A stretch of 64,000 nucleotides of DNA, taken from NCBI GenBank assembly GCA_016286365.1, contig JAEESN010000005.1, positions 1-64,000 of the forward strand, read 5' to 3'. Every line of letters begins with the position of its first letter. The first letter of the stretch is position 1. The notes beneath the pieces were generated by a model. That model made no database searches, was not told the origin of the DNA, and saw only the letters and a program-made list of their open reading frames with translations. This document shows positions 1 to 53,026 of the stretch, piece by piece. The stretch is from Treponema sp. Lineage in GTDB: Bacteria > Spirochaetota > Spirochaetia > Treponematales > Treponemataceae. Position numbers and translations under genes: made by a program.

Positions 1-452
1 ACATTTACTCCAAACTCTTCGGCCCACTGAATAAGCTTCTGCTTTTTTTCGTACTTTCGTTCAAGATAACGTTCCATATCAAAAGCGCGGAACTGAATAT
101 AATCAAGATTGTATCGCTCGCATGCGTTATTCACAAAACCAACATCATTACTTACGGCAAAACCACCTATAAATCTGTTTCCTGTTGTAAAGAGCTTTTT
201 GATGTCTTTATAAAATGCCTCAAAATTCGGCTTAATCCTGAAGTAATCTTTTGAATATGCAAGCTGGCACTCACCCTTTCCGCTGAATAAATACCAGTCA
301 AAATCGCACTCAGGGTTCATAACAACATCTTCTGATTCAAGGATGTTTAATTCATCATCACAGACTACATATCCGAGTGAACAGATTTTTCCTATTCCTT
401 CAAAAGTATTTGCACATTCACAGTCAAAAAAGACAAAAGTTTTATGATTCAT
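1..452 (-). CDS. DnaQ/RNase T-like 3'-5' exonuclease family protein (partial, runs off window start)
   Basis: Translated by hand from ATG at 452 (minus): MNHKTFVFFDCECANTFEGIGKICSLGYVVCDDELN...; FFDCECAN resembles the DEDD exonuclease FxDxE motif. Open to window edge, so not in the ORF track. Confidence 0.65.
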   Translation of the reverse strand, partial: MNHKTFVFFDCECANTFEGIGKICSLGYVVCDDELNILESEDVVMNPECDFDWYLFSGKGECQLAYSKDYFRIKPNFEAFYKDIKKLFTTGNRFIGGFAVSNDVGFVNNACERYNLDYIQFRAFDMERYLERKYEKKQKLIQWAEEFGVN

Positions 453-6839: not shown

Positions 6840-8084
6840 ATGGAAAACAAATACAGAAAAGATTTCCCTTTCTTTAAAGCTATAGATGAAAACTCTGCCG
6901 GAGAAAACAAAGGACTCATTTATTTTGATACAGCGGCAACAGCCCAGCGTCCGTTTATTGTACTCAACGCAATGACCCATTTTTATGCAACAGAAAATGC
7001 AAATCCTCTGCGCGGACTATATTCTTTAAGTGAAAGAGCTACACTCGCCTACGAAAATGCACGCGAAACTGTAGCAAAATTCATAAATGCAAAAGATGCT
7101 TCGGAAATTGTTTTTACACGTAATGCTTCTGAAAGTTTAAATCTTGTTGCATACAGCTGGGGATTAAACAATCTTAAAGCCGGTGACGAAATCTGTGTTT
7201 CCATAATGGAACATCATTCAAACATAGTTCCATGGCAGATGGTGTGCCAGAAAACCGGCGCAAAGCTTGTCTTTATGGAATGCGACAAAGAAACAGGTAT
7301 AATCAGTGACGAAGAGATCGCTTCCAAAATTAACGGTCATACTAAAATTGTATCTGTTGTTCATGTAAGTAACGTTCTCGGTGTAACAAATCCTGTAAAA
7401 AAGATAGGACAGGCAGCACACGCTAATGGTGCAATTTTTATAGTTGATGGAGCTCAGTCGGCACCACACATGCAGGTTGATGTTCAGGATATCGATGCAG
7501 ACTTTTTTGCAATGAGCGGACATAAACTCTGCGGACCAATGGGAATCGGTTCACTTTACGGAAAACGCGAACTTTTAGAAAAAACCGATCCGTTCCTCCG
7601 TGGCGGCGAAATGATTGAATACGTAACACGGGAAAATGCAACCTGGGCAGAAGTTCCACATAAATTCGAAGCGGGAACTGTAAGCGCAGGAGATGCTGTT
7701 GGAATGGCAGCGGCTATCAGATACATCACTTCTATAGGTCTTGAAAACATCGAAAAGCACGATGCAGAACTTGCATGCAGAATTATCGAAGGGATGAAAA
7801 ATATTCCTCACATAAACATCATAGGCCCGAGAGACGGAAATAAACGATGCGGAATCGTTACATTTACGGTGGACGGCGTTCACCCGCATGATGTTGCTAC
7901 CCTTCTTTCCGAAGAACACATTGCGATTAGGGCGGGTCATCACTGTGCACAGCCGCTCGGGCAGTATCTTGGGCAGACAGCAACGGCAAGAGCGAGCCTG
8001 TATTTTTACAATACAGAGGAAGAAGTTGATATATTCCTCGAAAAATTGAGCCACCTGCGCGAGTGGAGTGGGTTTAAAGATTAA
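6840..8084 (+). CDS. sufS: Cysteine desulfurase SufS
   Basis: SufS/CsdA class: YFDTAATAQRP, EHHSNIVPWQ, DGAQSAPHMQVDVQDIDADFFAMSGHKLCGPMGIG, RAGHHCAQPLG. Confidence 0.95.
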   Translation: MENKYRKDFPFFKAIDENSAGENKGLIYFDTAATAQRPFIVLNAMTHFYATENANPLRGLYSLSERATLAYENARETVAKFINAKDASEIVFTRNASESLNLVAYSWGLNNLKAGDEICVSIMEHHSNIVPWQMVCQKTGAKLVFMECDKETGIISDEEIASKINGHTKIVSVVHVSNVLGVTNPVKKIGQAAHANGAIFIVDGAQSAPHMQVDVQDIDADFFAMSGHKLCGPMGIGSLYGKRELLEKTDPFLRGGEMIEYVTRENATWAEVPHKFEAGTVSAGDAVGMAAAIRYITSIGLENIEKHDAELACRIIEGMKNIPHINIIGPRDGNKRCGIVTFTVDGVHPHDVATLLSEEHIAIRAGHHCAQPLGQYLGQTATARASLYFYNTEEEVDIFLEKLSHLREWSGFKD

Positions 8085-8087
8085 AAT

Positions 8088-8296
8088 AAATATTAAAAAT
8101 AGACTACGGGAACCCTGTTTTTCTCCGCTAATAAATGAATTAAAAATCTTAACATATGTGTAAAGAACCTTATTTTTCTCCGCAAATGAATTATTAAAAA
8201 AATTCTAAATATTAAAAATAGACTACGGGAACCCTGTTTTTCTCCGCTAGGGAATTATGACGCTCCGAAAAACAGGAACCCCTAGGCCTATTTTTA
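8088..8296. repeat. Intergenic repeat: 43-bp perfect direct repeat (8088-8130, 8207-8249), a partial related copy (8165-8183) and a large imperfect palindrome (8213-8296)
   Basis: aaatattaaaaatagactacgggaaccctgtttttctccgcta appears twice; the second copy pairs imperfectly with gctccgaaaaacaggaacccctaggcctattttta at 8262-8296. Confidence 0.9.
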
Positions 8297-8457
8297 TATC
8301 TATTTAAATTTTAAAACATTAATCCATAGAATCATTTTAATTCTTTTCCTCGTTCAAATTAATTATTTCCCAAAGCCTATTTTTATATTCTTTTATTCCT
8401 TCAATACAATCCCCTCCCTTAGTTGCTCATTGCTCGGTTTTTCAGTATATTTTATTT

Positions 8458-8602
8458 AGAGACGAATATGGACACGAAGGATGCCTACGATCGAAAATCC
8501 GTTAAAAAATAAACCGTCAGGTTTATTTTAGGATTATCGAAAAAATGGCACAGAGCGGGATTTATCCCGCGACAAAGAAGAGACGAATATGGACACGAAG
8601 GA
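8458..8602. repeat. 24-bp direct repeats (8458-8481 and 8579-8602) flanking a 97-bp insert
   Basis: agagacgaatatggacacgaagga is identical in both copies; the second contains the sufU ATG. Confidence 0.9.
8483..8570 (+). repeat. Structured intergenic element, copy A
   Basis: gcc-N3-gatcgaaaatcc...ggattatcgaaaaaatggc followed by hairpin gcgggatttatcccgc; related to reverse complement of 15526-15607. Confidence 0.65.
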
Positions 8603-50582: not shown

Positions 50583-52514
50583 TCAGACTACAGAAAAAAT
50601 AACGTTTTGGGTTGTGATGTCTATAGAGCCTGCTTTAAGATTAACCTTATCATTTAAATTAAAATCTCCGGTGTTGCGCAGCGTTGTCTGCATATCAAGT
50701 GCTGGAATTAAAAAGAGTGCATCGTTTCCACGCCTGTCGATGCAAAAGCCTTCGTACACGTTTTCGGGATTCTGTAAAAGATAAACAAGTTTCCAGTGAG
50801 TTTCGCTTAAACGACTTGCCTTACGTGCCGCAAGACTCGCCGCATCCCCTGCCGCGATTCGCTCAAGCATTTCGTCTTTTCCAAGAACATGTTCACCATT
50901 TATAAAAGCCCTTAACTGTTCGTGAGCCACAAGGTCAGAATATCGTCTGAGCGGAGAAGTAACCTGGCTGTAAAAACTCAAGCCAAGCCCTGCATGAGGA
51001 GCCGGTGTAATTCCGACAGAACGCTTTCTCATACACTTTACGCGTGCAAACTGCTCTGCCCAGCCTCCATCAGGTAATTTTTCGGGGAACTCGGGCGCTT
51101 CCTGACTCACATATGGGAAAGGAATTTTATTTTTGAAAGCAAAACGTGCTGCCCCTTCTCCTGCCAAAAGCATCAGCTCCTGAACCATATCATTTGATTC
51201 GTAGCGCTCTTCTTCTTCAACAGTAACCTTTTTTGTTTCCTTATCCACCTTGATGTGAACTTCGGGCATGCGGATTGTGACAGCATTATTTTTATTACGT
51301 CGGGAAAGATTTTTTCTTGCAAGCTCAAAAAGTGGTTTTAATTCAGCGCTGTCTTTCTGTTTTTCTGCTTCTGCATAAGAAATCATCTTTACGTGAACCA
51401 GAACCTTTTTTACTTCACACTCTTCTATTTCGGAAAGTTCATTTACCAAAAGCCTGAACGCAAGTGCACTCGATTTTACCTTTGGATCATCTCCCGCTTC
51501 TTTTTCCTTAAGACCAAGAGCATAATCCTCGAGCGAACTTTCGCAAAGCATACGGCTGGCCCCTTCGGGAATATAAAGAGTAGTTCCCCGGTCGCGTGCC
51601 GCAATATCGATTGATGAATCAGGTTTTACAGAACTTGCTGGGTCAGCAATACAAATCCAATAATATTTTCCGTCATAGCCAACCGCATCATCAGGGTCAG
51701 CAGCATCAGGAGCATCCACCGCATAGCATACACATGGAACTTCTTCCCTTTCTTCTTCGGGCATTTTTCCAAGCTGTTCACGTGCAGAATCAAAACTGAA
51801 TCCAAAGCGCGTAGGATGAGGATTTTTTGTTATATCCCAAATCCCTGTTTCTATTAAGAGCTTATGAGCTTTTTCCTGCGAAAGAGGAAGCCCTGCTTCT
51901 GTAAGGATTTTTGATTTATCTGTTTTATTTAAGGCAAATGCTTCTACTTCGCCCATGAATTTTGCATCGGAAGGAAGATCAAGCTTACGTTCCTTTAAGC
52001 GGTTTATAAAAGCCTGCCTGATTTCTGCCTCGTGTTCTTTTTCGTAATTTTTCTGATTAATCAGTTTGATTTCTTCTTCGCTTCTTGGAACAAAGATAAG
52101 ATTACCGTTTTTAAGTTCATCCTGTAAAAGTGCAAACTCTTCTGATTTATTAAAGGAATTAAAATAGGAAAAAGCCTTGTCTGCCTCGAATGCTGAAAAA
52201 GCAATTTCGCATAAATCTTTGAGTGAAATATTTTGTGATTTAGTCTCTTCGTCCGAGGCAAGAAGCTCGTAAGTTTCTTTTACAGCGGATGAATAATCTG
52301 AATCTGCGTTTTCCAGCACTTTTTCCAGAGAAGAAACCGGTCCTTCGTGAATTAAAGCGGCATCCTTTTCTCTGATTTTCTGCTCCTGATAAACGGCCTT
52401 TTTTCCAGTTGGAGTAGCAGGCTGAACGCAATATTTTATTATGAATTTGTCCTTATCGATATCGGTGACAACTGCAGGCTGATTTTTGTATAGGAGCAGA
52501 GAGAGCTTTTTCAT
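50583..52514 (-). CDS. RNase II/RNB-domain exoribonuclease-like protein
   Basis: DAPDAADPDDAVGYDGKYYWICIADPAS; HAGLGLSFYSQVTSPLRRYSDLVAHEQLRAFI. Confidence 0.9.
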   Translation of the reverse strand: MKKLSLLLYKNQPAVVTDIDKDKFIIKYCVQPATPTGKKAVYQEQKIREKDAALIHEGPVSSLEKVLENADSDYSSAVKETYELLASDEETKSQNISLKDLCEIAFSAFEADKAFSYFNSFNKSEEFALLQDELKNGNLIFVPRSEEEIKLINQKNYEKEHEAEIRQAFINRLKERKLDLPSDAKFMGEVEAFALNKTDKSKILTEAGLPLSQEKAHKLLIETGIWDITKNPHPTRFGFSFDSAREQLGKMPEEEREEVPCVCYAVDAPDAADPDDAVGYDGKYYWICIADPASSVKPDSSIDIAARDRGTTLYIPEGASRMLCESSLEDYALGLKEKEAGDDPKVKSSALAFRLLVNELSEIEECEVKKVLVHVKMISYAEAEKQKDSAELKPLFELARKNLSRRNKNNAVTIRMPEVHIKVDKETKKVTVEEEERYESNDMVQELMLLAGEGAARFAFKNKIPFPYVSQEAPEFPEKLPDGGWAEQFARVKCMRKRSVGITPAPHAGLGLSFYSQVTSPLRRYSDLVAHEQLRAFINGEHVLGKDEMLERIAAGDAASLAARKASRLSETHWKLVYLLQNPENVYEGFCIDRRGNDALFLIPALDMQTTLRNTGDFNLNDKVNLKAGSIDITTQNVIFSVV

Positions 52515-52572
52515 GAAGATAGTATATCATAAAAAAATACTTCCGCAAAGAATCATGTTTTCTTCTAATTTT

Positions 52573-52926
52573 CTATTCGTATTTATAATATTGCTTATAT
52601 ATACAATTATGTTCTATGCGTACTTATAAAAACTCTCACGCAAAGAACCACATTTTGCATGTGCTATTCGTACTTATAAAATCGCTCCCGCAGAGAACCA
52701 CATTTTGCTCCACTAAGATGACGTTCCGCAAAATGTGAACCTCTGCTCCGCGATTTTATAAAACGGATATTATGAGGGTTGAAAAAATTGTGAACCTTTG
52801 CTCCGAGTTTTTATAAAACATATATTATGAATAATGAAAAAAATATGAATCTCTGCTTCGCGATTTTATAAAACGGATATATAAAGAAAGATGATTTGCA
52901 GGCGGTTTTATAATACGGATATTTTG
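52573..52926. repeat. Intergenic array of inverted repeat arms: about three left arms then four right arms
   Basis: Left arms near 52573, 52615-52658, 52665-52708; right arms 52735-52775, 52790-52830, 52845-52882 and partial 52895-52923. Confidence 0.85.
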
Positions 52927-53026
52927 CCGGTAAAGGAAAAATAATTTTATGTGTTTTTATGATATACTATCTTCTTTTGCGCGGGGGGAATTTGGAAGAG
53001 AATTGTTAAATTACAAGATTTTTTTT

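Follow-up and report, generated by a model that had tools for sequence, protein, structure and literature searches.

Results

Two hairpin loci in the window

At 52.5-53.0 kb of the window, which is the whole 64,000-nt stretch of Treponema sp. DNA that was analysed, a concentric palindromic element separates a minus-strand RNB-domain ribonuclease gene, which starts at 52514, from the 3' end of an ORF of 133 aa on the same strand. Its half-units are arranged in the order L3 L2 L1 apex R1 R2 R3, with L1-R1, L2-R2 and L3-R3 as best partners and a pairing that weakens outward. The match scores given below are those of covariance models, the first of which was obtained by a pattern search in the same genome followed by alignment of nine copies, and their E-values are rough.

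52515-52974, plus strand: whole concentric palindromic element, DNA fold z = -7.6
52515-52535, plus strand: outermost left arm, 21 nt, perfect complement of 52954-52974
52526-52561, plus strand: left half-unit L3, the oldest, decayed, with GAATC replacing GAACC
52624-52658, plus strand: left half-unit L2
52674-52761, plus strand: core hairpin L1-apex-R1, model match of 103.5 bits (E 1.3e-26 in the genome) for a sequence that is itself one of the nine used to build the model
52783-52816, plus strand: right half-unit R2, best pairing with L2
52838-52871, plus strand: right half-unit R3 (GAATC), best pairing with L3
52902-52931, plus strand: fragment of a further right outer arm
52954-52974, plus strand: outermost right arm, 21 nt

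Direct reading of the sequence at 52674-52761 gives the order TTATAAAATCGC-TCCC-GCAGAG-AAC-CACATTTTGC-TCC-AC-TAAGATGAC-GT-TCC-GCAAAATGTG-AAC-CTCTGC-TCC-GCGATTTTATAA, which is made up of the following parts.

52674-52685/52750-52761, plus strand: outer stem
52686-52689 (TCCC) facing 52747-52749 (TCC), plus strand: internal loop
52690-52695/52741-52746, plus strand: 6-bp stem
52696-52698 and 52738-52740, plus strand: AAC loop
52699-52708/52728-52737, plus strand: stem of about 10 bp
52709-52711 and 52725-52727, plus strand: second TCC loop
52712-52713/52723-52724, plus strand: AC/GT
52714-52722, plus strand: apical loop

The GAACC and CTCCG "motifs" pointed out in the first-pass annotation are internal loops of this fold, G[AAC]C standing opposite G[AAC]C and C[TCCC]G opposite C[TCC]G. 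The other locus, at 8.2 kb, begins 2 nt past the stop codon of a class-V aminotransferase gene (6840-8084) with the first of the features listed here.

8087-8130, plus strand: outer left half-unit, identical to 8206-8249, a second left half of the locus
8142-8185, plus strand: middle left half-unit
8213-8296, plus strand: core hairpin with apical loop CTAGGGAATTATGACG, model match of 68.9 bits (E 3.9e-16) for a sequence that is part of the seed alignment of the first covariance model, and 59 bits with a second covariance model
8367-8395, plus strand: decayed right arm, complementary to the outer left half-unit

At 8213-8296 the elements follow one another as in the 52.7-kb core with different stems, and the apical element CTAAGATGACG of the 52.7-kb core has its counterpart in CTAGGGAATTATGACG. 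The claim that both loci have a common architecture with differing stems was therefore confirmed by direct reading at both places, as were the isolated half-units at 8110, 8165 and 52792, beyond which further half-units were recognised at 52550 and 52640 (left) and 52847 (right). Folding of the single-strand DNA gave z values of -6 to -7 for the 52.7-kb core and of about -4.5 for the 8.2-kb core. In the window, GAACC-N(2..10)-CTCCG half-units occur 5 times against a mean of 0.31 and a maximum of 2 in 100 dinucleotide shuffles, while the paired architecture at 52695 had 0 occurrences in 100 such shuffles. The refuting outcome named in the first-pass annotation, counts on a par with shuffled sequence, is thus not seen within the window.

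Downstream of the 8.2-kb core, AGAGACGAATATGGACACGAAGGA forms a 24-nt exact direct repeat (window positions 8458-8481 and 8579-8602), the second copy of which overlaps the start of a NifU-like ORF.

A hairpin family confined to one genus

With the covariance model, 13 copies were found in the 2.68-Mb source genome. Of 200 genomes searched in this Treponema genus, 41 have hairpins, with 1-22 per genome and well over 100 copies in all. None of 23 genomes elsewhere in the order had a match and matches were restricted to one of the 20 genera of the taxonomic family, an absence that is soft since many genomes are incomplete assemblies. Named records matching the exact pattern are Treponema, mostly ruminant-derived, and no copy was found in viral contigs by exact-pattern scan. 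A Natrialba match to the DNA pattern (L102) was rejected, as its sequence has no such hairpin and the second covariance model finds none.

Family copies are laid out, from the outside in, as an A/T-rich outer stem, a TCCC/TCC loop, a 6-bp stem, a G[AAC]C/G[AAC]C loop, a stem of about 10 bp, a second TCC-type loop and a variable apex, for a total of 85-150 nt. Differences in the apex define subtypes of 85, 90 and 97-151 nt, with extra stems in those of greater length.

Rfam searches returned only tRNA on the window and nothing above gathering score on ten loci; weak mir-2013 and RefA9 matches fell below their gathering scores and were judged to be due to chance. In keeping with the earlier remark that the repeat belongs to no named family, a credible Rfam match is absent, and no description of the hairpin family was found in the open-access literature searched. 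The window's two loci are members of a single, hitherto undescribed family: large hairpin repeats, dispersed and restricted to one Treponema genus, with stems that differ almost entirely between copies yet remain perfectly paired. This confinement goes beyond the first reading, and so do the near-absence of G-U pairs, which hints at DNA, the concentric nesting and the position at gene 3' ends.

Covariation and scarcity of G-U pairs

In the nine-sequence alignment, 97.3% of cells are paired and two-sided change is seen in 20 of 30 pairs. When 108 distinct copies, drawn from many genomes, are considered, pairing holds in 95.3% of cells and all 28 modelled pairs vary on both sides, with 630 double-change cells and about 15 one-sided ones. 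Since these copies were aligned to the model, pairing is favoured, but double changes rather than G-U pairs cannot be produced in this way. The covariation score of the 108 copies was 0.585, compared to 0.161 when shuffled and at most 0.106 with partners slid by 1-3 columns. Covariation is thus overwhelming and lost upon a slide of 1-3 columns, which upholds the proposal of a structured repeat family. Between the orthologous copies L051 and L093, both bases of a pair have changed in three cases, one change restores a pair, and two changes fall in loops. The internal loops, for their part, are constant, with AAC/AAC in 79 and TCCC/TCC in 46 of the 108 copies, and in some copies the AAC loop is swapped for perfectly complementary bases.

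G-U pairs are nearly absent, with 16 of 2826 (0.6%) as compared to 22 of 347 (6.3%) in 16 tRNAs of related genomes (P = 1.6e-12). Such a depletion, about 11-fold relative to these tRNAs, is not needed by an RNA helix and argues against the possibility that the hairpins are structured 3' UTR RNA elements, an explanation to which the gene contexts below also relate. Together with the complementary replacements of the AAC loop, the near-absence of G-U fits a DNA-level fold or the copying of one arm by template switching, a process proposed as a hairpin maintenance mechanism (PMC8794818). The pair composition speaks for DNA as the level at which the hairpins fold or their arms are copied.

Position at gene 3' ends

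For left genes oriented toward the hairpin, the distance to the stop codon is at most 55 nt in 41 of 48, and for right-hand genes facing it the distance is at most 61 nt in 43 of 68; these contexts are simple longest-ORF calls, in which 22 "overlaps" and some distances are unreliable. In the same copies as above, at least 5 T in a row are held by the last 11 nt in 86 of 108, and a tract of at least 5 A by the first 10 nt in 82 of 108. Consequently, with an A-tract and a T-tract on the outer arms, a two-way terminator role is possible.

These tracts, the copies located just after stop codons and the very stable RNA folds are in line with 3' UTR RNA elements that would act as two-way intrinsic terminators or RNA stability elements, have their loops bound by protein and be spread and replaced through recombination, not transposition. 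On the other hand, a simple consensus terminator scan gave 1 hit against 1.0 expected at the 52.7-kb locus, hence no excess, and 3 against 1.2 expected at the 8.2-kb locus, where none corresponds to the whole core hairpin and the result is unconvincing. Some copies also lie between divergent genes, and the dispersal of similar copies within a genome would still demand a copying mechanism. Along with the depletion of G-U pairs, these observations make a family of RNA elements a possible but rather unlikely explanation.

Dispersal, empty sites and nesting

In G062, 13 copies have very similar cores and unrelated left flanks, several of them starting at or just after a stop codon, and in G208, which has 22 copies, the common part is more or less the 89-nt hairpin itself. 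Two G208 copies are absent from the syntenic positions of the sister species G026, which is 90-92% identical there; one of these empty sites is itself an inverted repeat (GGGATTTT...AAAATCCC), and clean target-site duplication was not seen at the two sites compared. At a third site, G208 has a family hairpin, G008 a hairpin with different stems and G026 a distant one (26.8 bits with the second covariance model), while G131, G019 and G130 have none. The empty sites and the variation at the third site thus indicate that the elements come and go. Right-side synteny of the 52.7-kb locus is lost in relatives, so that its empty site is unusable.

A distantly related hairpin type of about 150 nt was also observed at L257:2215-2363 (G026:C27), where it occupies the position that the family hairpin has in the sister species, and it has relatives in L147, L104 and L160.

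Inverted ends of about 18 bp around the hairpin are common to the G062 copies, and the window locus has 21-bp perfect ends at 52515/52974, as would be expected if the hairpins were the cargo of MITEs, that is, of non-autonomous DNA transposons with terminal inverted repeats moved by a DDE transposase. However, the terminal inverted repeats differ between genomes whereas the inner hairpin architecture is conserved, the common part in G208 is more or less the hairpin itself, and no clean target duplication could be read at the two empty sites compared. A MITE origin is regarded as improbable.

At 40 of 113 loci, with about 1 expected, the two flanks outside the core complement each other better than the 99th percentile of mismatched flanks, and copies are nested inside other hairpins in L098 and L057. 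The concentric palindromic flanks would be explained by insertion into existing inverted repeats, and at one empty site such a repeat is seen in the species that lacks the insertion. Simple nesting does not explain left-only arrays such as L009:1100-1450, a tandem array of five left half-units with a period of 50-55 nt and about one right half-unit, for which a further process is needed, for example tandem duplication.

In L057 and L098, the family copies are surrounded by short outer hairpins (CTCCCGTG.../...CACTCCG), which suggests a wider set of TCCC/TCC hairpins.

Candidate enzymes and integron attC sites

Association with enzymes was examined for two families. Y1_Tnp was found in 10 of 41 hairpin-bearing and 51 of 155 other genomes (P = 0.35, no association) and the presence of integron integrase was not associated with hairpins (P = 0.13), both tests being approximate as the 196 genomes of the enzyme search and the 200 of the hairpin search overlap without being identical. 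RAYT was rejected as mobiliser owing to this lack of association. No hairpin copy was found at the genome's own RAYT-like gene locus or at 29 of 30 other Y1 loci scanned, the single weak match falling between an IS200-type gene and the adjacent one. The RAYT-like gene in question (L116:1375-2220, G000:C29) occurs in one copy and resembles Y1 transposase genes; it is called RAYT-like for its size of 281 aa, and no family hairpin lies beside it.

Integron attC sites are recognised as folded single strands of DNA, through their structure and their unpaired bases, and their R''/R' boxes carry conserved AAC and GTT triplets. The hairpins described here are similar in style, with a folded hairpin, unpaired loops, a variable apex and a position after stop codons, and the source genome has an integrase. 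A locus of this genome (L283, G000:C31:270500-288500) holds the integron integrase and an attC-like repeat array (CATAAC...GTTATG) unrelated to the hairpins. Integrons are indeed known to occur in Treponema (PMC3607928). The resident integron repeats (...CATAAC... and ...GTTATG...) are, however, unmatched by the hairpin model, of which no match lies in the 18 kb around the integrase. Unlike in attC, both arms of the hairpins carry AAC and the pairing GTT is in neither, so that the AAC/GTT pair is missing, and the hairpins are not in cassette arrays as the resident attC repeats are. Since the latter look different and the integrase is not associated, identity with attC sites was rejected as highly improbable.

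Discussion

Taken together, the two loci are probably Treponema-specific miniature DNA hairpins with a REP/REPIN-like behaviour, dispersed, mobile and landing at gene 3' ends or inside inverted repeats. According to the mechanism proposed, the units would spread as short non-coding pieces of about 85-150 bp, the recognised form being a folded single strand or a cruciform, and the constant non-complementary loops (TCCC/TCC, AAC/AAC and TCC-type) would be putative contact points of a recombinase or another hairpin-binding protein. The stems would be free to drift as long as the arms stay complementary, through selection on the fold, template-switch copying of one arm, or both. Fresh insertions would occur directly downstream of stop codons and within inverted repeats that are already present, the apex of an older copy being one such place, and insertion at the apex would generate concentric arrays with decaying outer layers. 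As a side effect, hairpins with an A-tract on one outer arm and a T-tract on the other are candidate two-way transcription terminators.

On a more speculative level, and with a rather low likelihood, the hairpins could represent a new class of single-strand DNA mobile element, the constant internal loops of which would be recognised by a recombinase other than RAYT and IntI that prefers existing hairpin loops, including those of its own kind, with concentric palindromes as the outcome.

The family enlarges the set of known mobile DNA hairpins by a large and unusually structured group from rumen and gut Treponema, a lineage in which the literature searched describes no such elements. The insertion target and the enzyme can be sought by comparing sister species that have copies with those that lack them, and the ratio of about 630 double to 15 single changes makes the family a clean natural case in which to ask whether compensatory change arises via DNA template switching.

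As for known systems, CGTC-tagged palindromic repeats are short, lack a known transposase and are reported in Spirochaetes among other phyla (PMC3733652). Their layout, with a terminal CGTC, an 8-9 bp stem, a 4-5 nt loop and a CCA tail, is absent from the cores inspected against that description. The pneumococcal BOX, RUP and SPRITE repeats are structured and modular, occur between genes, insert into each other and are over-represented between convergent genes (PMC3049150); the hairpins resemble them in habit only, as they differ in sequence and architecture and have no A-B-C module order.

The likeness is closer with REP/REPIN elements of the GTAG type, the hairpins being dispersed, intergenic and near gene 3' ends, a placement also described for REPs, whose distance from both gene 3' ends in convergent pairs is about 20 bp or less (PMC3733652). 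Arms of REP/REPIN show compensatory changes (PMC3116915), and their internal mismatches or bulges matter for recognition (PMC8266576). In contrast to REPs, which are palindromes of 20-50 nt, the hairpins measure 85-150 nt and combine three fixed non-complementary internal loops with concentric arrays and no Y1/RAYT association; the GTAG/GGAG-type 5' tetranucleotide is not seen and the flanks outside the outer stem differ between copies. The hairpins therefore work like REP/REPIN elements but are not members of that group as defined.
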